This document shows positions 5,488 through 20,644 of a stretch of DNA of 21,947 nucleotides, piece after piece (the stretch's first letter is position 1; every line of letters starts with the position of its first letter). The stretch is taken from positions 1 to 21,947 of the IMG/VR virus record IMGVR_UViG_3300015262_000036; one strand, given 5' to 3'. Under the pieces are notes generated by a model. It ran no database searches, was not told the origin of the DNA, and saw only the letters and a list, made by a program, of their open reading frames with translations. Position numbers and translations under genes: made by a program. Origin of the DNA: a virus.

Positions 5488-5511
5488 CCTCGCCAATGGC
5501 GGGGTTTTTTT
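5488..5511 (+). terminator. Intrinsic terminator before the scaffold/capsid genes
   Basis: CCTCGCC (5488-5494) pairs with GGCGGGG (5498-5504) in seven base pairs with one G-U wobble and a three-base loop, followed by seven T. Just behind it GCTCGC (5514-5519) and GCGAGC (5523-5528) form a second small hairpin. The CTCGC in that second arm could also pair with GCGGG of the terminator stem. It lies within the late unit, so it must be read through or bypassed, or scaffold and capsid have a further promoter that I cannot identify. Confidence 0.85.
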
Positions 5512-5553
5512 ATGCTCGCAAGGCGAGCCGGCCAACCCTAAGGAGTGTGCCAA

Positions 5554-8408: not shown

Positions 8409-8789
8409 ATGGCCCGAGGATGGAGAGTGCCGCCGAGCCTGTTTATAGGGGTTGTCGAGCAAGACCTTTCGAAGAAGATCAGGACGATCGCTATCCAGCT
8501 TCTCAACGAGATAACCATGCGAATGCCGGTTGATACCGGGCGCGCACGGGCAAACACCATCGTGAGTATCGGCGCTCCGGTCTACCAGGTTCTGGAAAGC
8601 TATGACAAGTCGGGCGGCAACACGATCATGAATGGCGCCTCCCGCCTGAGCGGCCTGGAGCCATACACGGTCGTTTACCTGCAGAACAACCTGCCCTACA
8701 TCGAGAAGCTGGAAGACGGCTACTCGAAACAGGCGCCGGTTGGCATGTTCGGCACAGCATTCAACAGCGTGGCGAGGGCCAACCAATGA
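8409..8789 (+). CDS. Neck / tail completion protein (HK97 gp10-like)
   Basis: 126 aa. The N-terminal helix leads into the motif MPVDTGRARANT (about residues 38-49), the hallmark of the HK97 gp10-like family. A loop region (SYDKSGGNTIMNGASRLSG) and the C-terminal YLQNNLPYIEKLEDGYSKQA segment, with the typical Y-I-x-x-L-E-x-G pattern, follow. These proteins sit at the head-tail junction and help attach or finish the tail. The start is three bases after the stopper gene with GAGGAAG upstream, and the stop overlaps the next gene (ATGA). The length is normal and all family landmarks are present. Confidence 0.87.
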   Translation: MARGWRVPPSLFIGVVEQDLSKKIRTIAIQLLNEITMRMPVDTGRARANTIVSIGAPVYQVLESYDKSGGNTIMNGASRLSGLEPYTVVYLQNNLPYIEKLEDGYSKQAPVGMFGTAFNSVARANQ

Positions 8790-9184
8790 CATTCGAGCAG
8801 ATCCGAAGCATCGTCACCACGCGCATGACGCAGTGGACCGGTATCCCGGCGGCGAGCGTTGATTACCCAAACCCGCCAAAGCCGTTCGATCCTGCAGGTA
8901 AGGCGATATGGGCCAGGCTGGCTGACGTGCCGGGCCTGTCCAACGCGCCCGAGATAGGCCTGACGCCATGCGTGCGCAGAACCGGCGTCATCATCATTCA
9001 GCTGTTCGTCAAGACCTACACCGGCACGCTCGCCATCACCAAAGCGGCTGACACGCTGGTCCAGCACTTCCAGTTCTTCAGCCAGGACGGTTTCGACTGT
9101 TTCGCCGTGTCGACCAACACCGTCGGCGATGATGGTCTTGGCTGGTATCAGGTAAACATCCAGGTTCCCTACCGGGCGCATTGA
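8786..9184 (+). CDS. Tail terminator protein (DUF4128-like)
   Basis: 132 aa, with start overlapping the neck gene stop and GAGGG at 8774-8778. The N-terminal helix (MTFEQIRSIVTTRMTQW) is followed by a beta sheet that includes YPNPPKPFDPAG, then IGLTPCVRRTGVIIIQLFVK and the amphipathic helix AITKAADTLVQHFQFF. The protein ends with a strand (GWYQVNIQVPYRAH). The helix-sheet arrangement and the R-x-G-x-I-x-I-Q-x-F core fit the phage tail terminator family (DUF4128, lambda gpU-like fold). It would cap the tail tube and stop its growth at tape-measure length. It is the last gene of the connector series; a terminator-like hairpin follows. Confidence 0.85.
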   Translation: MTFEQIRSIVTTRMTQWTGIPAASVDYPNPPKPFDPAGKAIWARLADVPGLSNAPEIGLTPCVRRTGVIIIQLFVKTYTGTLAITKAADTLVQHFQFFSQDGFDCFAVSTNTVGDDGLGWYQVNIQVPYRAH

Positions 9185-9206: not shown

Positions 9207-9229
9207 AAATCCGACATTGAGCGGATTTT
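9207..9229 (+). terminator. Terminator-like hairpin after the tail terminator gene
   Basis: AAATCCG (9207-9213) pairs with CGGATTT (9222-9228) around an eight-base loop, and the T-run is short (9226-9229, then CTCG). It is weaker than the other three hairpins of this block and would give partial termination at best. It separates the connector genes from the accessory gene at 9249. Confidence 0.5.
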
Positions 9230-9248: not shown

Positions 9249-9734
9249 ATGCAGAGCCACAACTACGTTCCGGGTGTCTCAGGATGGAAGATAGATCAAT
9301 CTGGTCGCCTTGAGTTGAACGACGGTAACCGACGCGTGATTGCTTCCATGATCATGGTCACTACCGCCGGACCAGGGCTGACGAATGATCAGGCCGCCGA
9401 ATCCATCACCGCCGCCGTCACTGAAGAGATTCAGGCGCGAGCACAAGCTGACGCGGTGAGTGCATCACTTATCGGTACGCTGGAAAGCACTATCAATCCA
9501 AAGCCCTTCATTGTTGTCGATGGCGTGACCTACATGAATGAGGCGTTCATCAAGGAATCCTCGATCGGTGTCAAGATCGCTAAGGACTGGTCGGTGAAGG
9601 CGGAGCTGCACAACGGCGATTACGTTGTGGCCGGCATCGGTCTGGGTATTGATTCGCAGTGTCTATTCAGCGCTGAAAAATTCCGGGTCAATTGCATGTG
9701 CGGCGGCGGACCTGCCGGGCTCGCCTCGAAATAA
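9249..9734 (+). CDS. Tail-tip-like accessory protein (permuted miniature of the J-like C-terminus)
   Basis: 161 aa, with GGAG at 9238-9241 seven bases upstream. Residues 2-24 (QSHNYVPGVSGW, then SGRLELN) match residues 957-979 of the J-like tip protein of this phage (QSNNYVAGTTGW, then GTFEIN). Residues 86-101 (PFIVVDGVTYMNEAFI) match J 927-942 (PFAVVGGQVFMNSAYI). Residues 114-148 (WSVKAEL, AGIGLGID, LFSAEKFRVN) match J 874-915 (WSVKMQIS, AGVGLGIE, LVSADRFAIVN). The order is changed: the segment that ends J comes first here. The middle (about 40-85) is an Ala/Glu helical linker of its own. With terminator hairpins on both sides and a place between tail terminator and tail tube genes, it looks like an inserted accessory gene (moron). 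Function is not known; a tail decoration or an adsorption-related role is inference. Confidence 0.75.
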   Translation: MQSHNYVPGVSGWKIDQSGRLELNDGNRRVIASMIMVTTAGPGLTNDQAAESITAAVTEEIQARAQADAVSASLIGTLESTINPKPFIVVDGVTYMNEAFIKESSIGVKIAKDWSVKAELHNGDYVVAGIGLGIDSQCLFSAEKFRVNCMCGGGPAGLASK

Positions 9735-9756: not shown

Positions 9757-9778
9757 CCCGCCATGAGCGGGTTTTTTT
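9757..9778 (+). terminator. Intrinsic terminator before the tail tube gene
   Basis: CCCGC (9757-9761) and GCGGG (9767-9771) enclose the loop CATGA, and seven T follow. CCCGC recurs at 9782-9786 directly after the T-run, so GCGGG could pair there instead. AAAGGAG of the tail tube gene follows at 9789-9795. Confidence 0.8.
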
Positions 9779-9803
9779 ATGCCCGCAGAAAGGAGACATA
9801 CCC

Positions 9804-10733
9804 ATGTCGTCAGGAGCAAAGGTCGCCACGGCCTATGTCGAAGAAGTAACCCAGGGCGTCACGCCCGCAACTGGCTGGAAAGAGCTGATCCGCACCTCAT
9901 TCGGTATCGGCCCAACCCAGAACACCGCAGAAAACAACGAAATCGGCTCTACTCGAATGAGCCAGGGCACTACACCGACTACGGTTGATGTTGCCGGTCC
10001 GATCGGCATGAAGTGGCGCTACGGCGGCGCGGTCGACGACTTCCTGGAGTCGTGCTTCGGTGCGCGCTGGACGGCTGACTCCCTGACCATGGGTAATCAG
10101 CGCATCAGCTACTCGATCGCCTCCTACGCCAGTGACGTGACTGTTGCGTCTGTGGCCCGCGGCGCACAAGTGGCCTCGATGGCCTTCACCTTCGGCACTG
10201 ACAATGATGTGACCATCGACACCACCTTCTCGGCGACCGACTGGGCAGACAAGGCTGACGGTACGAACTTCTTCGTCACGCCAACTCCAGAGCCGGACGG
10301 TCCTCGCTTCAACTTCAAGAACTTCACCGCCCTGACGCTGGATGGCGTGGCTGCTTCGGCAGCTAACGGCACCTGCATCAGTGCAATGTCGCTGACCTTC
10401 GATAACGCGGTCCAGACTCAGCGCTGCCTGGGCTCGGGTGACGCCTTCGCCGGCAGCATCATCCCGACAACCTTCAGTGCCTCCGGCAGCGTCACCGTGG
10501 CCTGGTCTGCCGCTTCCTACGCCTTGTACCGCAAGCAGCGCACCGGTGAGTCGGTAGCCATGAGCTTCACGCTCGAGAACGTAGACGGCGCCTATACGGT
10601 GCTGCTGCCAGAAATGGAAGCGGTCGGCAGCTGGCCGGATGGCGGCGCGACCGACATCATCGAGGTGGAGCTGGCTGTTTCGGCTCGCCGTATCCCGCCA
10701 ACGATCACTCGCGTACCGGCTGTTACGCCTTAA
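9804..10733 (+). CDS. Major tail (tube) protein
   Basis: 309 aa. AAAGGAG at 9789-9795 with eight-base spacing is one of the best ribosome-binding sites in the window, as expected for an abundant product. The start MSSGAKVATAYVEEVTQGVT is followed by GWKELIRTSFGIGPTQNTAE, a beta-rich body with many Ser/Thr/Ala, and the repeated theme A-S-M-A-F-T-F / A-M-S-L-T-F-D-N / A-M-S-F-T-L-E-N, which indicates duplicated beta-sandwich halves. This matches the phage tail tube family of the Phage_tube_2 type. It polymerises around the tape measure to form the tail shaft. The order tail tube, then G/GT chaperones, then tape measure confirms the role. Confidence 0.9.
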   Translation: MSSGAKVATAYVEEVTQGVTPATGWKELIRTSFGIGPTQNTAENNEIGSTRMSQGTTPTTVDVAGPIGMKWRYGGAVDDFLESCFGARWTADSLTMGNQRISYSIASYASDVTVASVARGAQVASMAFTFGTDNDVTIDTTFSATDWADKADGTNFFVTPTPEPDGPRFNFKNFTALTLDGVAASAANGTCISAMSLTFDNAVQTQRCLGSGDAFAGSIIPTTFSASGSVTVAWSAASYALYRKQRTGESVAMSFTLENVDGAYTVLLPEMEAVGSWPDGGATDIIEVELAVSARRIPPTITRVPAVTP

Positions 10734-10765: not shown

Positions 10766-10781
10766 GTTGCTGGGGTACAGA

Positions 10782-11297
10782 ATGACCTTTATTTTGAAAA
10801 AGAAAGATCCGCTAGATATCGTGTCAACGCGATGGATCGAGCCGGCTCCAGGCCTTCGCTTGCAGATCGGATCGTCCGCCCGACCAGGCTACACCAGCGA
10901 CTTCCGACAGATTCAGCGACACCTTGAGTTCGCCTCGCGCCAGATGGGCGTGGGCACTGAAGAGTTCGACATCCTCAAAAAGTCCACGGTCGAAATTCCA
11001 GACCCTGACATTTTGTTCGTCGAGCTGGCGTGCAAGCACCTGATCCTAGACTGGGAAGGTGTTGCAGAGGCAGAAGATCCAGAAACCCCGGCGCCTTATA
11101 CCCCCGCGCGCGGCGTTGTTCTGATCGAGCAGATGCCAGAGGTTTACTTCCTCGCCCTGAATGCCGCCAACGACATTGCCCTGCGTCACAAGGAGCAGGT
11201 GGCCGACACAGTGGAAAAGCCCTTGCCGCCTACCGCTGGGCAGCCGAGTGGGCGGGCCCGGAAAACGAGCGCAAAAGAGAAGTCCGCGAAAAGCTGA
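10782..11297 (+). CDS. Tail assembly chaperone, G-like (0-frame product)
   Basis: 171 aa from ATG 10782 (MTFILKKKDPLDI). An in-frame TTG five codons upstream is possible but has no better ribosome-binding site; GGGG at 10771-10774 serves the ATG. The body (KHLILDWEGVAEAEDPETPA, then YFLALNAANDIALRHKEQVA) is an acidic helical domain like gpG-type chaperones. The last 25 residues (PLPPTAGQPSGRARKTSAKE and KSAKS) are a low-complexity Pro/Lys/Ser tail with the look of a frame that is read only when frameshifting does not occur. In lambda, G and its frameshifted form G-T bind the tape measure and recruit tail tube protein without entering the virion. Its place between tail tube and tape measure is canonical. 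Confidence 0.88.
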   Translation: MTFILKKKDPLDIVSTRWIEPAPGLRLQIGSSARPGYTSDFRQIQRHLEFASRQMGVGTEEFDILKKSTVEIPDPDILFVELACKHLILDWEGVAEAEDPETPAPYTPARGVVLIEQMPEVYFLALNAANDIALRHKEQVADTVEKPLPPTAGQPSGRARKTSAKEKSAKS

Positions 11298-11554
11298 GGG
11301 TTTACATTCCTGAGCCGCCCGAGCTTGATGGTGCAACCACCGATATGCTGGGCGCCTACTACGTCATCAGTCGAGCGCGGCAGTATGTCGGCATGAATGG
11401 GGTTCCGGCCCCTTTGTCGGTCGGAGCGCTCAACGATTACCTGGCAGCCTATGGCGAGCAATATGCGCGCGACGAGTTTGATGCGGTGATATTCGCCCTC
11501 GATGGCGACTTCCTTGAGCGATGGGCTGAAAAGAACAAGCCGTCAGATAAGTAA
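10782..11554 (+). CDS. Tail assembly chaperone G-T fusion by -1 frameshift
   Basis: The T part has no start codon of its own with a ribosome-binding site. Its frame is open from before 11030 to 11554 and overlaps G. A -1 slip at 11213-11219 joins residue 146 of G (ending T-V-E-K) to ALAAYRWAAEWAGPENERK and onward, giving a fusion of about 257 aa. The T section (111 aa) includes REVREKLRVYIPEP and an alpha-helical C-terminus (DEFDAVIFALDGDFLERWAE), plausible for the T domain that contacts tail tube subunits. Frame arithmetic is direct from the sequence; the slip itself is inferred from the slippery motif, the downstream stem and the lambda G/G-T precedent. The ATG at 11345 in the T frame has no ribosome-binding site. 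Confidence 0.8.
11213..11255 (+). promoter_or_regulatory. Candidate -1 programmed frameshift site with stimulatory stem-loop
   Basis: Heptamer G GAA AAG (11213-11219, spaced in the G frame) has the A_AAG tetramer known to favour -1 slipping in bacteria; the A-site Lys codon re-pairs perfectly, the P-site Glu codon with one mismatch. Six bases further, CCGCCTAC (11226-11233) pairs with GTGGGCGG (11248-11255) in eight base pairs with one wobble. The spacing is optimal for a stimulatory structure. Confidence 0.65.
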
Positions 11555-11609: not shown

Positions 11610-12020
11610 ATGCACATTCTCATAGGGTTGATTGTTGTTGTCGCGGCGCTGATATTCGCGCCTTGGCTGGTGGCTATCGCTGTCGGCGTGATGGCGAGCT
11701 ACTGGGCTTTCGGTCTGATCATCTTCGTCCTGGTGGCCTGCTGGGTGCTTGCTCCACAGGTTGTTCGCATGATTCGCCGACAATCCTTTGCGGCTGGCGG
11801 GTACTGCGGAAGCCCGGACTACAAGCCTGGCGAGATCCTTGGTCGAGTTAGTCCGGTGGCTCCCTTCTCTGCTCCAGTAGCGCCCGCCAAGCCAGTCGCG
11901 AAATCTGAGGCGCCGTCGCCAGTCACTCGCCTTTCGCCCTGCGGCGCATGCGGCGAGCCAATCAAGAAGCACAGCATGTACTGTCCAAGCTGCGGGGGAG
12001 ATCCCCGAGCCAAAAAATAA
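11610..12020 (+). CDS. Two-helix membrane protein with C-terminal zinc ribbon (accessory gene)
   Basis: 136 aa from ATG 11610, with GGGG at 11599-11602. The open frame extends further upstream, but that part overlaps the G-T gene and has no good start. Residues 3-27 and 31-52 are two strongly hydrophobic helices with almost no gap. A basic stretch (RMIRRQ) and a Pro/Ala/Ser-rich linker (about 78-108) follow. The C-terminal zinc ribbon has C111, C114, C125 and C128 (CGACGEPIKKHSMYCPSCGG). With the basic stretch inside, the ribbon would face the cytoplasm. This is not a usual tail gene. It sits alone between the chaperone and the tape measure and is followed by a terminator, so it looks like an accessory gene carried for the host or for superinfection control. 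That role is inference. Confidence 0.75.
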   Translation: MHILIGLIVVVAALIFAPWLVAIAVGVMASYWAFGLIIFVLVACWVLAPQVVRMIRRQSFAAGGYCGSPDYKPGEILGRVSPVAPFSAPVAPAKPVAKSEAPSPVTRLSPCGACGEPIKKHSMYCPSCGGDPRAKK

Positions 12021-12025
12021 ACAAG

Positions 12026-12047
12026 ACCCGCTCCGGCGGGTTTTTTT
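12026..12047 (+). terminator. Intrinsic terminator before the tape measure gene
   Basis: ACCCGC (12026-12031) and GCGGGT (12036-12041) close on a TCCG loop, so the loop is C(UNCG)G-like and very stable. The T-run occupies 12041-12047. CGCC at 12049-12052 after the T-run can pair with GGCG at 12035-12038. It lies six bases after the stop of the zinc-ribbon gene. Confidence 0.85.
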
Positions 12048-12064
12048 ACGCCCAGGAAAAAGCC

Positions 12065-15000
12065 ATGACTCAGCAATCCAGTCGCTTAGATATCATCATC
12101 GATTCGCGGCAGGCCCAGCGGAATGGCGAGCAACTTCGGATCACCCTCAACAATCTGGTCGTAGTTGGTGACCAGACGGCGCGCTCGATGGATGGCGCCG
12201 GAACTGCGGCAAAGGCAGCCGGCGCAGCATTCGCAGCACTTGGAGTTGGCCGGGTTGTCGGCGAGATCATCCGCCTGACTGACGCCTTCAAGTCCATGCA
12301 GGGCTCTCTGGCGCTTGTCAGCTCATCGAACTCTGTCGCTACTGATTCGTTTCAGAAGCTGCTGACGATGGCGAACAATACAGGCAGCTCGCTGGAGTCG
12401 ACTGTTTCGCTGTATACCCGGCTGGCCAACGCCACCCGAGGCGCCGGTTACACCACCGAGCAATTGCTTGGCGTGACCGACGCCATCAACAAAGCGTTTG
12501 TAATCTCTGGCGCCACCATGCAGGAGGCATCCAACGCTGCGATTCAGCTGTCCCAGGGCTTGGCCTCTGGCACACTTCGCGGCGAGGAACTGAACTCTGT
12601 CATGGAGCAGGGGCCTCGCATCACCCGGGCGCTGTCTGAATACCTGGGCGTCACCAACGGCCAGATTCGCCAGATGGCGGCTGACGGAAAGATCACCGCC
12701 GAGGTGGTCACCAACGCACTGCTCAAATCGTTGTCGTCGCTGAACTCCGAGCTGGATCGCATGCCGCGGCGGTTCGAGCAGGCATCGACGGCGCTGAAAA
12801 ACAACTTCTTGGCCGCTGTCGGTCAGATCGACATTAACCCCCTGATCAGCTCCGTAGATGAGCTGGCAAACTCGCTGGCAAAGCCCGAGGTTATCCATGG
12901 CATCCAGACCATCGCCACCGGCCTTGGCAATGTCGTGGCAGTCGGCGGCGACGGCCTAAAAGCGGTTGTCACCAATGCCGATGCGCTTATGGCGATCACT
13001 GGCGCCTACGCTACAAAGGTCGGGGTCGGCCTCGTCACCTCTCTAGCGTTGGCGGCCAAGGCTCGACTCGCCGATACCGTCGCAGCCAATCAGCAGATCA
13101 TTGCTTCCCGCCAGGCAGAAGTGGCCGCCACGGCCGAGGCTGTCGCCATACAAAGCGTGGTCGTGGCTTCGACCGAGGCCAGCCTGGCTCGGGCCATCTA
13201 CGCCCGCAGTGAAGCCATGGCGACGGCTCAGACAGAACTGGCTAGCCTCAGGCAGCTGAAGGCTGTTTCTGCTCAGCTTGTTGCCGACCGTCAGCTCGAA
13301 GTCCAGCGGATGCAGGCGCAGATCAACAACACCGGACTAGCAGCTTCGCATACCCGTCTCGCCGAGATCCGCACCGCAGAGGCTGCAATTACCTCGCAGC
13401 TCACGGCCGCCGAGGCCCGCCTTGCTGTTGCGCGACAAGCTGAGTTGGCGACCGGTGCAGTCGTCGGCCAGCAAACCGTTGCGCTCAATGCTGCGCGCAC
13501 TGAAGGCGCGGCAATCCTTGGCGCACAAGCTGCCGCACAGAACGCACTCAATGCCGCCGAATCTCGGGGCGCAGCAGTTCGCGGCGCCTCCATGGCAGCT
13601 ATTGGCGGCCCGCTTGGCCTGGTAACGCTGGGACTTTCCGCCGCTGCCGCTGCTTACATCTATTTCAGCAGCTCTGCCGACACCGGCACGCAGTCGCTGA
13701 TTGATCAAAACCTGACGATTGACGATACGGTCAAGAAGTTCGATAGCCTGACGGCGGCGCAACAGCGCAATCAGGCGTCGAAGTGGGCCGAGGCACAACA
13801 GGCGGCGCTTGATCAGGCGTCGGCCTCTGCCAGTAATTACGGAAACATCGCCGAGAATGCGATCACTTCCGTCGGCGCGGCACGGGTATCCGACTTGGCG
13901 ACTCTGTCGAGCATGATTGCTCAAGTGAAGTCCGGACAGAAAACCCTGGACGATGTCACTGTCTGGCTGCAGTCGACGCAAGGCCTATCAGGTGGATTCA
14001 AGTCCTCTCTGGAGGGGATCGCCGCCGGCTACGACACCAGCATTCAATCGGCGGCTGGCTATGCCGAGCGTCTTCAGTCTGTCAGCAAGCTCGCGCAGGA
14101 AGCATCAGCCAATAACGGCAAGCTGGCAGCCTCGCAGGATGCTACCAGCAAGGCCAATGGCGCCAGTGCTCAGGCGTGGGACAAGTACATTGCACAGCTG
14201 ACAAAGACGCGCGACCTAGTTGGCGCAAACGCAGCAGCTGAGGCCGCATACACCGCAATCAAGATGGGCGCTAATGCGGCGCAGCAAGAGCAAGCCAAGG
14301 CCATCGCAGCTCAGACCGACCTGCTCAACAAGTACCAGGACGCCGTCAAGGAGAACAACAAGGCCGAGCAGGAACGCCTGAAGGTTCTTCTGGTTGCGAG
14401 CTATGCCGCCATGCAGGCCGCTGAGGATACGGCTGCCGCGCAGAAGAAAGCCCTGGGCGATACCGCAAAAGCAGCTGAAGAGAGTTCGGCCCGGCAAGTC
14501 AGTGCAATGCAGCGGATCATCGACAAGTCGGTCAACCTGGCAGCAGGTCGAAATCTGTTGCTGGTCGATCAGCCAAAGCAAAGCCTTAGCGGCTATGGGC
14601 TGCTGACCAATGGCGGTACCGCGCCAGCTGCACCGGCCACCTCGCGCAAAACACCTCAGCAGCTAGCTGAAGAGCAGATGGCGCAAATTGTTGCCGGCAC
14701 CACGCCGAACAAGCCGACTAAAACCCCGAAAGGACCAAGTGAAAAAGGCGAGCTTAACGCTGCGCTGAGCGCCTTCGATGCTCTCTACAAAAAGGCAGAT
14801 CCGGCAGCAGAGGCTGTTCGAGATCTGACTGAGGCGCAGGAAAAGCTTCAGTTTGCGCTTTCGAAGGGAAAGATCACCCAGGAACAATACGGCGTTGCAT
14901 TAGGCCAGGCATCAAAGGATTACGCCGCGGTCATCGCAAAAACTGGAGAATTGAGCCAGGCAGAGCAGTACCGGCTACAGATCCAGAAACAGCTTCAGAA

Positions 15001-16000
15001 CCAGCAGGAAGCTGCAAACCAGGCTGCCGCTGCTATTGGTCAGGGATCGGAGGAGGCACAAAGAGCCTCCGAGCGACTGAAGCTGGAGAGCGATCACAAC
15101 GACCGCGTTCTAGATCTGCGCACAAAGCTTGCCAGGGCATCAACCGACCAGCAACGCAAGGATCTGCAGGACCAGATCAATATCACCGAGGAGCTATTCC
15201 CGCAGCAGGTCGCAATCATGGTGGATGGCTGGGCCAAAGTGGATAAGGCCCAGGCTGACTGGTCGAACGGCGCAAGGTCGGCATTTCAGACCTACGCCGA
15301 GCAGGCCGCTGATGTAGCAGGCCAAAGCAAATCGCTATTCACCAACGCCTTCAGCAACATGGAAGACAGCATCATCCAATTCGTGAAAACCGGGAAGCTG
15401 TCGTTCAGGGATTTGGCCGACGGTATCATTGCCGACCTGATCCGCATCCAAATTCGTCAGGCGGCGGTTGGCATTTTTGGAACTCTGTTCAGCGGCTTTG
15501 CTGGTGCTGGCGCATCTGCTGCGGGCAATGGATTGGCGGCTGGCTCTGCTGGGGCTACGTCATCGAGTCTCGGCGCTTCGGCTGCTGGCTATGGGGCGAA
15601 GTACGGATTCTCTGATGGCGGTTATACCGGCGACGGCGGAAGGTACGAGCCGAAAGGCGTTGTTCACGGTGGCGAGTTTGTGGTCCGCAAGGACGTGGTG
15701 TCGCAGCCTGGCACGCGCGAATTCCTTGAGCGCATGAACGCATCAAGCAAAGGATACGCTGACGGCGGATTTGTTGGGTCAGCATCAAGCGGCAAGGATT
15801 CCGGCGTAGCGCAGGGCTCTACCGCATCAGGCTCCGGCGTTGTCATTGAGCAACACTTTAGCTTCCAAGGTACGCCCGACGACGCAACCATCAACATGGT
15901 CAAGGAAGCGGCTATGCAGGGAGCAAAGGGCGGCTATGAGCTGGTCGTCCGTGACCTAAAACAGAACGGAACCATCCGCCAGCTGATCGCTCGGCGCTAA
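12065..16000 (+). CDS. Tape measure protein (lambda gpH-like)
   Basis: 1311 aa from ATG 12065 (MTQQSSRLDIIIDSRQAQRN) with AGGA at 12054-12057; a longer in-frame start would run across the terminator and is rejected. Residues about 60-260 form the tape-measure N-terminal domain (LTDAFKSMQGSLALVSSSN, GVTDAINKAFVISGATMQEA, GTLRGEELNSVMEQGPRI). Ala-rich coiled-coil-like helices follow to about 510, with a hydrophobic segment near 515-540 (LGLVTLGLSAAAAAYIYF) that may enter the host membrane at DNA injection. The lambda-type C-terminal domain is at about 1090-1135 (MEDSIIQFVKTGKLSFRDLA). A Gly-rich tail with YEPKGVVHGGEFVVRKD closes the protein. It sets tail length; at the usual ratio of about 0.15 nm per residue, the tail would be close to 200 nm. 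No frameshift or truncation is seen. Confidence 0.95.
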   Translation: MTQQSSRLDIIIDSRQAQRNGEQLRITLNNLVVVGDQTARSMDGAGTAAKAAGAAFAALGVGRVVGEIIRLTDAFKSMQGSLALVSSSNSVATDSFQKLLTMANNTGSSLESTVSLYTRLANATRGAGYTTEQLLGVTDAINKAFVISGATMQEASNAAIQLSQGLASGTLRGEELNSVMEQGPRITRALSEYLGVTNGQIRQMAADGKITAEVVTNALLKSLSSLNSELDRMPRRFEQASTALKNNFLAAVGQIDINPLISSVDELANSLAKPEVIHGIQTIATGLGNVVAVGGDGLKAVVTNADALMAITGAYATKVGVGLVTSLALAAKARLADTVAANQQIIASRQAEVAATAEAVAIQSVVVASTEASLARAIYARSEAMATAQTELASLRQLKAVSAQLVADRQLEVQRMQAQINNTGLAASHTRLAEIRTAEAAITSQLTAAEARLAVARQAELATGAVVGQQTVALNAARTEGAAILGAQAAAQNALNAAESRGAAVRGASMAAIGGPLGLVTLGLSAAAAAYIYFSSSADTGTQSLIDQNLTIDDTVKKFDSLTAAQQRNQASKWAEAQQAALDQASASASNYGNIAENAITSVGAARVSDLATLSSMIAQVKSGQKTLDDVTVWLQSTQGLSGGFKSSLEGIAAGYDTSIQSAAGYAERLQSVSKLAQEASANNGKLAASQDATSKANGASAQAWDKYIAQLTKTRDLVGANAAAEAAYTAIKMGANAAQQEQAKAIAAQTDLLNKYQDAVKENNKAEQERLKVLLVASYAAMQAAEDTAAAQKKALGDTAKAAEESSARQVSAMQRIIDKSVNLAAGRNLLLVDQPKQSLSGYGLLTNGGTAPAAPATSRKTPQQLAEEQMAQIVAGTTPNKPTKTPKGPSEKGELNAALSAFDALYKKADPAAEAVRDLTEAQEKLQFALSKGKITQEQYGVALGQASKDYAAVIAKTGELSQAEQYRLQIQKQLQNQQEAANQAAAAIGQGSEEAQRASERLKLESDHNDRVLDLRTKLARASTDQQRKDLQDQINITEELFPQQVAIMVDGWAKVDKAQADWSNGARSAFQTYAEQAADVAGQSKSLFTNAFSNMEDSIIQFVKTGKLSFRDLADGIIADLIRIQIRQAAVGIFGTLFSGFAGAGASAAGNGLAAGSAGATSSSLGASAAGYGAKYGFSDGGYTGDGGRYEPKGVVHGGEFVVRKDVVSQPGTREFLERMNASSKGYADGGFVGSASSGKDSGVAQGSTASGSGVVIEQHFSFQGTPDDATINMVKEAAMQGAKGGYELVVRDLKQNGTIRQLIARR

Positions 16001-17207: not shown

Positions 17208-17606
17208 ATGCGCTACCGAGACTGGACAACCCGACTGAACGACGTGATCAAGGCCGCCCAAGAGCGGCCTTTTTCATGGGGCGAATTTGACTGCTGCCTG
17301 TTCGCGGCTGATTGCGCGGCGGCTGTTTGCGGTATCGATCCAGCCGAGCAGTACCGCGGCAAGTACACGACAGAGACTGGCGCCAAGCGACAGCTGAAGA
17401 AGCAGCACGGCAGCCTGGAAGCAGCGTGGGACGCCTGCTTTTCGCGGGTTCCGCTGACCTTCATCCAGCGCGGCGACGTAGTGATGTACGACGCGCCCGG
17501 CGGCCGAAGCATGGCCATCTTCTGGGCTGGAGATTTTTGGGCAACGACCGATGACGGCGCGGCCAGAGTTGAATGCGAGCCACTGGCCGCTTGGAGGGTT
17601 GAATGA
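17208..17606 (+). CDS. K-like tail assembly protein (DUF6950, NlpC/P60-related)
   Basis: 132 aa from ATG 17208. The central motif FSWGEFDCCLFAADCAAAVC corresponds to the active-site region of NlpC/P60 peptidases (G-x-x-D-C), followed by YRGKYTTETGAKRQLKKQHG, typical of DUF6950 proteins in tail operons. The later part reads RGDVVMYDAPGGRSMAIFWA. The place where true NlpC/P60 enzymes have the catalytic His (G-H-V-G-I) is R-S-M-A-I here, so the catalytic His seems absent. It occupies the position of lambda gpK between L-like hub and tip and probably acts in tip assembly rather than as a cell-wall hydrolase. The stop overlaps the J-like start (ATGA at 17603-17606). Confidence 0.8.
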   Translation: MRYRDWTTRLNDVIKAAQERPFSWGEFDCCLFAADCAAAVCGIDPAEQYRGKYTTETGAKRQLKKQHGSLEAAWDACFSRVPLTFIQRGDVVMYDAPGGRSMAIFWAGDFWATTDDGAARVECEPLAAWRVE

Positions 17607-20600
17607 GCGGCGGCGTCAGAAAACTTGCCTCAGTTGTGGTTGGTGCGGTTGTTGGTTTTGCTCAGGGCGGCCCGTGGGGCGCTGTCGCTGGTGCGGCGCT
17701 GGCCTTCTATGCAGCCGAGCAACAGGAAAAGCTCAACACCAAGTCACCATTGCGTGACAACGAGCCATCCGCGCAGACCGTGCGATCGTCGAAGGCTCCG
17801 GTTCGCTTCATCCTCGGCCGCGTTTCCACCGGCGGCGTTCTCGTCTGGGCTCAGGAACAATCGGGCGCGCAAGGTGAGGGCGAGTGGCTTCACCTGGTGT
17901 ACGTGCTGTCCGAAGGCCCGATCGATGCGCTTGAAAACATCTACCTTGGCGAAGAAGAGATCAGTGCGTTTGGTCCGCTGGCCAGCTATGAGCTGATCGT
18001 CAATCCTACGCAGGTGAACGCTTTCCTGAAGGCCAACTGCCCAGACTGGAAGGACAGCCAGATCGGTCGCGGCCTATCCTTCGTTCGTGTTTCGCTGCAG
18101 TACAGTGCCGAGAAATTCCCCTCGGGCATCCCGGATACTCGGTTTGTAGTACGCGGCCGGAACGACATTTACGACCCGCGCACCGGCACCGCCGTTTACA
18201 GCGCCAATACCGCGCTGCACTTGCTCTGGTTCCTGCGTGCGCGTTGTGGTGTGCCTGACGACGAGATCGTATTCGAAACCTTCGCCAGTGCCGCCAACGT
18301 GTGCGACGAAGCGCTGACCAACGCTGACGGCTCGACCAGCCAGCGCTATAGGAGCGGCTGCGTGATCGGTGCGGACGAACAGCGCACAGGTGTTCTGCAG
18401 AAGCTTGAAGCGGCCTCTGGCGGTCACCTGATACGTGTCGGCGGCCGCTGGATGTTTCAGGCGGGCGCTTATTACGGCCCGTATGACTTCGAAATCACCG
18501 AAGACATGGTGATCGGCACTGTCACAGGCAGCACCGAGCCCACCAATGATTCGGCAATCAACACCGTTCGAGGCACGTTCATCGATCCGGATCAGTCCTG
18601 GACCGAGACCGACTACCCCGAAGTCAGTGTTGCAGAATGGATCGTTGAGGACGGTGGTGAAGCAGCGGAAACGCTGACCTACTCCTACGTCACTGATCCG
18701 TACCAGGCCCAGCGCTTGGCGAACATGGAGTTGCGCCGTCGCCGTGCGGGCGGGGCGATCAGTATTCCGATGAACTTCTCCGGCTACAACTGTCGGCCGG
18801 GCCGCGTGGTGCGGGTCAACCTGCCGTCTCTGAATATCCTTGGCGAGTTCATTGTTTCCGACTGGTCTATGGGCGATAGCGAAGGCTGCACGGTCCAGGT
18901 CAAGCAGTACGAGGCGGCCATCTTCGACGATGCAGTAGGTCAGCCGTACAACCCGCTGGGCTTCATTAATCTACCTACCGGCGGACTCGGTTCGCCTACC
19001 GGCCTTGCGTGGGTGGCGGGTGATGATGCGGAGGTTATTCAGGGGGTTCTCTCCTGGGCGCCGCCAAGCGGGATCGTCTCGGAATACGTGGTCATCGTTC
19101 GGCAGGGCGCTACAGCGATTCGGTCGTACAACGTCCCGGCGATATCGACCGAATGCCCAGTCAATGGCTTGCCGTCCGGCAACTACACGATGAGCGTGGC
19201 GGCTCTCGGGCCTATGGCTCGGTCTGGCGAGGCGACGATCACGGTCAGCATCAACGGGCCGCCGATCCCGGAGTCGTGCGTAGTGCAGTCGTCGATCGAC
19301 CACATCGTGCTGATCCCGCAGAACCCGAATTACGGGCTCAACGGCGGCACCTACGAGTACTTTTTCAGTACTTCGCCGACCGCCACCGCGGACGACGCCG
19401 ACTTCCTCGGGAGAGGGCTGTCGTTCACCCATACAGGATTGGCGTTCTACACGAACTATTACTACTTCGTGCGCTCGTCGAACGCCTATGGGAAAAGCGC
19501 ATTCCTGTACGTTCCGACCTCGACCTCGAATGACGTGTCGGCCTACCTGGCTGCACTGGCAGGGAAGATCACCCGATCGGAGCTCGGTCAGATCCTTCTG
19601 GATGAGATCGACAAAATCCCAGGACTTCAGGATCAGATCGATGCGCTCGATGGCTTGACCGGCTACAAGCCTGATCGGATATACGCGAAAGACCTTATGG
19701 TCGTTGAGGGCGACCGGATCTTTCAGGCTAAAAGCGAAGTGCCAATCAACACGCCGCCTCCGAATGCCACTTATTGGCTGGATGTGGGTCAGTCGATCGA
19801 GACGGCCAACGGCCTGGCGCAGCAGGTCGCGTTCAATACTGCCGACATCACTGAGCTCGACGGCGTGGTCACTGCACAGGCGACCGCGTTTCAAGCGTTG
19901 CGGGCATCCTCCCGCGACGACAATGGCGAGGGGGCTCTGGCGGATGCGCTGAAGGGCTGGACAAGTACCGCCGCGATAGCTTCGGAATCAAAGGTTCGCA
20001 CCTCTGAAAACGAAGCGATGGCGCAGCGGATCACTACCTTCGATGTCGCTATCGGCGAGAACGCCGCGAACATCACCGAGCTGGAACAGGTGGTCGCTAC
20101 CAACGAGTCAGCAACAGCCACGAAGATCGATCAGGTGAATGTGTCGGTGGGGCAAAACACCGCCGCGATTCAGCAGACGTCGACAGCCTATGCCGACACC
20201 AGCGGCAAGCTCTCGACCATGTGGTCGGTGAAGATGCAGATCTCCGCTGGCGGGCAGTACATCGCAGCCGGCGTCGGCCTGGGCATCGAGAACACTGGCG
20301 CCGGCCTGCAAAGCCAGTTCCTGGTGAGCGCGGATCGATTCGCCATCGTCAACACCATCGCAGGCGGCACCGTCTCGGTTCCGTTTGCGGTGGTTGGCGG
20401 CCAGGTGTTCATGAACTCGGCGTACATCCAAGATGGCACGATCACCAATGCCAAGATCGGCAACTACATCCAATCGAACAATTACGTCGCGGGCACCACT
20501 GGGTGGAAGTTGTTTTTCGACGGTACGTTCGAGATCAACTCGGCGTTCGGCGGGGGCGGACGTCAGCTGATTAACAATGCCGGCGGCAAAGTGTTCGATC

Positions 20601-20644
20601 AAAACGGCGTGAAGCGCTACCAGTGGGGAGACCTTAGCGTATGA
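17603..20644 (+). CDS. Central tail tip protein (lambda gpJ-like)
   Basis: 1013 aa. Residues 8-36 are an unusual Gly/Ala hydrophobic stretch (SVVVGAVVGFAQGGPWGAVA), reminiscent of a gpI segment; no separate gpI gene is present. Residues about 60-450 are the tip core, including a Phage-tail_3-type domain near 273-450 (GGHLIRVGGRWMFQAGAYY, QAQRLANMELRRRRAGG). Two fibronectin-III-like beta domains follow (about 461-550 and 552-650), then a short chitin-binding-like segment (about 691-735, PPPNATYWLDVGQ), a helical coiled-coil region (about 740-870) and the DUF1983-like fibre tail (873-979). The protein forms the trimeric tip that contacts the receptor. The C-terminus ends with VFDQNGVKRYQWGDLSV, related to motifs in the next two genes. 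Confidence 0.93.
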   Translation: MSGGVRKLASVVVGAVVGFAQGGPWGAVAGAALAFYAAEQQEKLNTKSPLRDNEPSAQTVRSSKAPVRFILGRVSTGGVLVWAQEQSGAQGEGEWLHLVYVLSEGPIDALENIYLGEEEISAFGPLASYELIVNPTQVNAFLKANCPDWKDSQIGRGLSFVRVSLQYSAEKFPSGIPDTRFVVRGRNDIYDPRTGTAVYSANTALHLLWFLRARCGVPDDEIVFETFASAANVCDEALTNADGSTSQRYRSGCVIGADEQRTGVLQKLEAASGGHLIRVGGRWMFQAGAYYGPYDFEITEDMVIGTVTGSTEPTNDSAINTVRGTFIDPDQSWTETDYPEVSVAEWIVEDGGEAAETLTYSYVTDPYQAQRLANMELRRRRAGGAISIPMNFSGYNCRPGRVVRVNLPSLNILGEFIVSDWSMGDSEGCTVQVKQYEAAIFDDAVGQPYNPLGFINLPTGGLGSPTGLAWVAGDDAEVIQGVLSWAPPSGIVSEYVVIVRQGATAIRSYNVPAISTECPVNGLPSGNYTMSVAALGPMARSGEATITVSINGPPIPESCVVQSSIDHIVLIPQNPNYGLNGGTYEYFFSTSPTATADDADFLGRGLSFTHTGLAFYTNYYYFVRSSNAYGKSAFLYVPTSTSNDVSAYLAALAGKITRSELGQILLDEIDKIPGLQDQIDALDGLTGYKPDRIYAKDLMVVEGDRIFQAKSEVPINTPPPNATYWLDVGQSIETANGLAQQVAFNTADITELDGVVTAQATAFQALRASSRDDNGEGALADALKGWTSTAAIASESKVRTSENEAMAQRITTFDVAIGENAANITELEQVVATNESATATKIDQVNVSVGQNTAAIQQTSTAYADTSGKLSTMWSVKMQISAGGQYIAAGVGLGIENTGAGLQSQFLVSADRFAIVNTIAGGTVSVPFAVVGGQVFMNSAYIQDGTITNAKIGNYIQSNNYVAGTTGWKLFFDGTFEINSAFGGGGRQLINNAGGKVFDQNGVKRYQWGDLSV

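Follow-up and report, generated by a model that had tools for sequence, protein, structure and literature searches.

A standalone phage gene of reversed tail-tip modules, and a possible role as a counter-defence decoy

Why should a siphophage carry, among its structural genes, a short separate gene that resembles the end of its own tail-tip protein? The stretch of DNA analysed here (the window) comprises 21,947 bases of a siphophage record, in which the genes for terminase, portal, capsid, neck, tail terminator, tail tube, chaperones, tape-measure protein (TMP) and tip protein J (17603-20644) follow one another in the usual order. An earlier note had placed an ORF of 161 codons between the tail terminator and tail tube genes, and had described it as an accessory gene built of the phage's own tail-tip parts; the ORF and its site are borne out by the PF13554 and PF18906 matches of its neighbours, and the description is supported by the comparisons that follow. 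The features concerned are these:

8786-9184, + strand: tail terminator gene, bordering the insertion site on its left (PF13554, 1.3e-8; PHROG_179)
9207-9228, + strand: weak upstream hairpin, AAATCCG...CGGATTT, which folds no better than shuffles (z -0.20)
9249-9734, + strand: accessory gene of 161 aa, a PHROG_18217 member (5.5e-31) with PF09327 modules reversed (8.4e-16, three stretches); ORF with ribosome-binding site
9252-9320, + strand: block C (QSHNYVPGVSGWKIDQSGRLELN), residues 2-24, pairing with J 957-979 (block HMM 4e-11; BLASTP 1-31 against J 956-990)
9381-9497, + strand: helical segment, residues 45-83 (AlphaFold2 helix 46-80, block pLDDT 71-90; weak match, E 0.1, to the coil preceding J block A)
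9504-9581, + strand: block B (PFIVVDGVTYMNEAFIKESSIGVKIA), residues 86-111, pairing with J 927-953 (block HMM 3e-4)
9588-9686, + strand: block A (WSVKAEL...GIGLGI...SAEKFR), residues 114-146, pairing with J 874-914 (block HMM 2e-9; BLASTP)
9690-9710, + strand: Cys motif NCMCGGG close to the C-terminus (C-terminus pLDDT below 50 in the model)
9757-9782, + strand: downstream terminator-like hairpin and T-run, a copy of GCGGGTTTTTTTATGC (hairpin 9757-9778 fits the terminator consensus)
9804-10733, + strand: tail tube gene, bordering the insertion site on its right (PF18906, 2.4e-30)
11948-16000, + strand: TMP gene (TIGR01541, TIGR02675)
20222-20344, + strand: J block A, residues 874-914 (PF09327 at J 855-992)
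20381-20461, + strand: J block B, residues 927-953 (block coordinates)
20471-20539, + strand: J block C, residues 957-979 (block coordinates)

After the tail tube gene, two overlapping ORFs in different frames (10767-11554) look like frameshifted G/GT tail chaperones.

Reversed J modules in the accessory protein

The accessory ORF has a good ribosome-binding site, GGAG. Its product scored 58.4 bits against PF09327, for which the curated cut-off is 22, and the match is not collinear, being made up of three stretches in reversed order. Positions 3-138 of the 216-position PHROG_18217 profile, a family labelled as of unknown function, align with residues 1-144 of the window protein; relatives match nearly the whole profile, whereas the window copy lacks its C-terminal third. 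The PF13550 hub and PF24489 Ig domains of the window's J are absent from the 161-aa protein. NCBIfam profiles gave nothing useful for the accessory protein, and no PADLOC profile matched either the window protein or three of four relatives, the fourth, from phage PMBT14, giving a weak match (E 0.053).

To compare the modules one by one, the C-termini of 20 J proteins were divided into A (WSVK...GLGI...SADRF), B (PFxVxxGxxxxNxAxI) and C (QSxNYVxGxxGW...EIN), each with a profile of its own. All three profiles recognized the accessory protein, and BLASTP against J returned three non-collinear alignments (E 2e-6 to 2e-5), so that the block HMMs, PF09327 and BLASTP agree in placing the J-like blocks at the residues first reported. 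At the level of sequence, the likeness to J is well beyond chance.

The order of the blocks is C-B-A in the accessory protein and A-B-C in the window's J. The A-B-C order was found in all 20 of the J proteins compared; among 53 order-tested sequences, which include a few long fibre proteins besides standalone copies, 29 read C-B-A, 10 C-A, 7 C-B and none A-B-C. Block reversal thus appears, on these sequence comparisons, as a family-wide trait. The gene had previously been called a circularly permuted version of the J C-terminus, and that wording is not borne out: rotations of A-B-C give only B-C-A or C-A-B, and the C-B-A order is instead a reversal of blocks, which rules out circular permutation. 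Tandem block repeats in J, as another origin of the changed order, were sought in the J proteins and none were found; each aligned J holds one A-B-C set, the J of Klebsiella phage HJK1 is plain A-B-C, and the claim of an altered order stood. A divergent copy in PMBT14 (L087:11533-12489), read by eye, lacks block C and has A preceding B.

Single-chain AlphaFold2 models of the accessory protein (pLDDT 69.8, pTM 0.37) and of the J C-terminus (pLDDT 74, pTM 0.44) were both weak; block by block, the residues modelled as a beta-hairpin are the same in the two, an agreement that is local only. Because the hairpins coincide in the two models, the modules look like independent hairpins open to reordering. 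Foldseek searches with the weak model of the accessory protein gave nothing better than E 2.0 (PDB) and 0.14 (viral), and no solved structure was found to match over the full length of the protein. For the J C-terminus, matches were to lambda J, the F2-pyocin fibre and further J-like PDB chains; chains of this kind also gave weak matches to the family profile, by a single module each time. Close to the C-terminus, the motif CMCxGG occurs in 12 ORFs, all of the accessory family, and nowhere else among about 6600 ORFs compared; its cysteines could possibly bind metal or form a disulfide.

The gene had also been described as flanked by terminator-like hairpins, which are weak evidence on both sides; the upstream one folds no better than shuffles. 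The window contains 17 terminator-like sites, compared with 16.9 in shuffles. The downstream hairpin fits the consensus, but it belongs to an element, GCGGGTTTTTTTATGC (hairpin arm, T-run and ATGC), that occurs three times (5500-5515, 9767-9782 and 12036-12051), a number reached in none of 100 shuffles. Each copy directly precedes a gene, respectively the one at 5545, the tail tube gene at 9804 and what is probably the TMP start, near 12065, and the sequence pattern marks GCGGGTTTTTTTATGC as a recurrent gene-boundary element. No consensus promoter was found directly before the accessory gene.

Relatives, their tape-measure-like ends and their exchange

Dozens of IMG/VR contigs encode relatives of the accessory protein, as do the isolates Cruim01, Aurca01, Medea1 and PMBT14; the Medea1 copy is annotated 'host specificity protein J'. 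By our own count, about 4% of the Pseudomonas species genomes sampled (some 12 of 299) contain short standalone copies. This genus-wide search outperformed scans of a genome collection, in which an alignment query found no relatives and a single-member query found one, and the plasmids searched held no member of the family. A literature search, in which the PHROG number was not among the queries, found no paper on the family.

The search for similar standalone genes between terminator and tube genes, suggested in the earlier note, found relatives there, and a second recurrent site lies upstream of terminase or holin genes. One contig bears two different members, one at each site (L042:577-954 and L042:10001-10684). 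The J C-terminus profile has a match in all 38 of the family-bearing records; for a few that are truncated, the listed match is to the family protein itself. The site is empty, with terminator and tube genes adjacent, in phiPSA1, Klebsiella ST16-OXA48phi5.1, Erwinia Gungnir39 and Salmonella SPF_0923.

Members vary in length and integrity. Six long ones (L011, L013, L042, L045, L046 and L066) have a middle insert of about 100 aa (ITVTAGxW..DLPAxAxERYAFIGAEL...) that finishes in a J-terminus-like DGVxRxxxGNL. Two copies are damaged, one by an early stop in a Pseudomonas costantinii prophage (L151:9788-10516) and the other by an internal TAG in another Pseudomonas (L156).

The main new observation, made by sequence comparison, is that many relatives have ends resembling that of the TMP, in two unrelated styles; the window copy is an exception. 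Two features of the window's TMP are echoed in relatives, namely its end (residues 1315-1338, INMVKEAAMQGAKGGYELVVRDLK) and the motif GGYTGDG (1224-1230). Many relatives finish in ...VREVIRxELxPGGLLHR, the GG type, and a profile of these ends has one significant match outside the family (E 4e-8), to a TMP C-terminal fragment; PHROGs calls that fragment TMP, and the family to which it belongs also draws a match from L045, one of the relatives (E 3.8e-4). Four other members finish in IKEAVMQGVxxGYQAxLKDL or a close variant. A profile of window-type TMP ends puts five family ORFs on top among 6556 non-TMP ORFs, and GGYTG, a TMP motif lying some 127 residues before the TMP end, occurs in 18 ORFs for TMP, in 11 of the family and in one further ORF. 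In PMBT14 the accessory copy ends in IRKEQRPGGLLHRD and the TMP in IREEQSPGGLLWNQTEARNG. The window copy ends in NCMCGGGPAGLASK and has no TMP-like end (p 0.945 in the comparison with its own TMP against shuffles), and about half of the family members, this copy included, are of that kind.

Across 42 pairs, family ends are closer to the TMP of their own phage than to those of other phages, a result reached in 0 of 20,000 shuffles, and the likeness persists for the GG-type ends alone (p 0.008). When one pair was kept per TMP-end cluster, the median p was 0.048 (range 0 to 0.32); clustering weakens the signal, and relatedness thus explains part of it, perhaps not all. The J blocks were compared with the phage's own J in the same way (blocks B and A together, p 0.09; whole, p 0.15; block C, p 0.03), and overall this test of a decoy role was negative.

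How the gene changes is illustrated by phages Cruim01 and Aurca01, which share a host strain. The parts of J compared are 100% identical, the terminator and tube genes are 99% identical and the last 200 residues of the TMP 94% identical, whereas the accessory proteins share 37% identity, and the DNA identity breaks a few bases inside the accessory gene start. The second half of the Aurca01 gene is 93% shared with another contig; pieces therefore swap within the gene. The J of Aurca01 is annotated as two overlapping ORFs (L017:16592-19928), probably owing to a frameshift or an error in sequencing. Throughout the family the N-terminus is near-constant and the remainder variable. Between related copies dN/dS is mostly 0.1-0.6, which indicates mild purifying selection at the sequence level. 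Taken together, the empty sites, the cassette exchange and the dN/dS values indicate a gene that is functional yet dispensable, and the sequences describe a widespread cassette in rapid exchange, variable even where J is identical.

Candidate roles in and around tail assembly

Tail-assembly blocking is a recently recognized defence of prophages and satellites, exemplified by Tab, Tai and Rta. Tai blocks tail assembly and is escaped by mutations in the J C-terminal region (PMC11364771), and Tab of the Pseudomonas aeruginosa phage JBD26 targets the TMP C-terminus, with an anti-Tab counter-defence encoded within the late operon (PMC10884400). Substitutions in the TMP of ICP1 give escape from Rta (PMC12987554). 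The TMP C-terminus is located in the baseplate core, the starting point of tail building (PMC11445458).

Our leading explanation, held tentatively, is that the accessory protein is a counter-defence decoy that titrates tail-assembly blockers; the idea arises because Tai and Tab attack the very regions of J and TMP that the family's modules resemble. The decoy would be made alongside the tail proteins and would offer J-type surfaces, and in many members TMP-type surfaces too, to Tab- or Tai-like blockers of the host or a prophage. The blocker would be titrated while the real tails assemble, and the gene would be swapped as the local set of blockers changes. Block order would be free, because decoy modules need not form a working tip. 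The window copy would be a decoy of J surfaces only, because it lacks the TMP-like end. Extended to the whole family, the proposal becomes one of widespread target-mimicking counter-defence, in which a swappable set of J- and TMP-like epitopes would capture the blockers that prophages and satellites encode; this, too, we regard as a possibility to be entertained with caution.

The sequence evidence that would favour a decoy consists of the J modules, the TMP-like ends that in relatives resemble the phage's own TMP, a cassette that varies at constant J and flanks, the empty sites, and the second site near terminase or holin. Several findings weigh the other way: the J blocks fail to follow the J of the same phage, some half of the family has no TMP-like end, the own-TMP signal falls to its median p of 0.048 under clustering, and the modules would also fit a small structural fibre. 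For these reasons the decoy stays tentative, and a minor tail fibre is nearly as likely.

The accessory protein may decorate the virion: it would be a minor component at the tip or along the shaft of the tail, a trimeric fibre or plug of small size, swapped to alter surface contacts. Its near-constant N-terminus might conceivably serve as the anchor, its variable middle as the contact and its TMP-like end as a dock in the tip core. Every recognized module is of tail-fibre type, the gene is placed among structural genes, the pattern of a constant N-terminus and a variable remainder fits, and the baseplate core is known to house the end of the TMP (PMC11445458). Points that sit less well with a virion fibre are the second site beside holin or terminase, the dispensability of the gene, its variation where J and flanks are identical, and the competition with TMP that docking at TMP's own dock would entail. 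In the texts searched for Medea1 and PMBT14, no virion mass spectrometry report was found. The earlier note had proposed several roles, of which a decoy or competitor for tip assembly is now one of the two best readings; what the protein has in common with J are general PF09327 beta-hairpins, which makes a decoy for the receptor, or a spare module for receptor binding, less likely.

Fragments of J and TMP could also act as dominant-negative poisons that keep rival phages in a shared cell from assembling their tails. That they derive from proteins that start assembly, that the J blocks are unmatched to the phage's own J and that the gene is an exchange cassette all suit such an attack. It is nevertheless unlikely, since the TMP-like ends resemble the phage's own TMP and would poison the producer, and since a position in the structural cluster without a consensus promoter does not indicate expression in a lysogen. 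Rather improbable, too, is a helper that holds the J and TMP ends together or shields both during tip nucleation and is later released: it would account for the joining of features of two proteins that meet in the tip (PMC11445458), yet many relatives with related tubes do without the gene, and the family shows no co-variation with J. Non-functional debris of tail-gene recombination, to which the few damaged copies (the early end in P. costantinii and the internal TAG in L156) might point, is very improbable and is largely refuted by the selection signal in the sequences (dN/dS mostly 0.1-0.6); a start and module order conserved in dozens of phages and the good ribosome-binding site also speak against it.

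Comparison with known systems

Reported escape from tail-assembly blockers, in the accessible parts of the sources, is by mutation of the target or by dedicated binding proteins. A family of recombined J- and TMP-like pieces that changes without a change of the tail makes target-mimicking counter-defence directly testable; should the product turn out to belong to the virion, the family would still be a hypervariable tail accessory that lacks annotation.

In its PF09327 region, the J protein of lambda and its relatives has three modules in common with the accessory protein, which differs from J in being standalone and short, in having no hub or Ig domains and in its reversed block order. Many family members have a final helix that matches the TMP C-terminus, its ending being of the GG-L-R or the RDLK type, and the likeness is limited to the last 25 to 40 residues and the GGYTG motif. 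Like moron genes, the accessory gene is single, is inserted between conserved genes and has empty sites in relatives; unlike them, it has no detected promoter of its own, and its terminator is the recurrent boundary element rather than one specific to the gene. Anti-Tab and AtiEcA bind the partner defence of the same prophage, and a make-up of target pieces is unreported for them in the accessible parts of the sources. Both are described as late-phase phage proteins that neutralize a tail-assembly blocker, and as a decoy the accessory protein would act alike.
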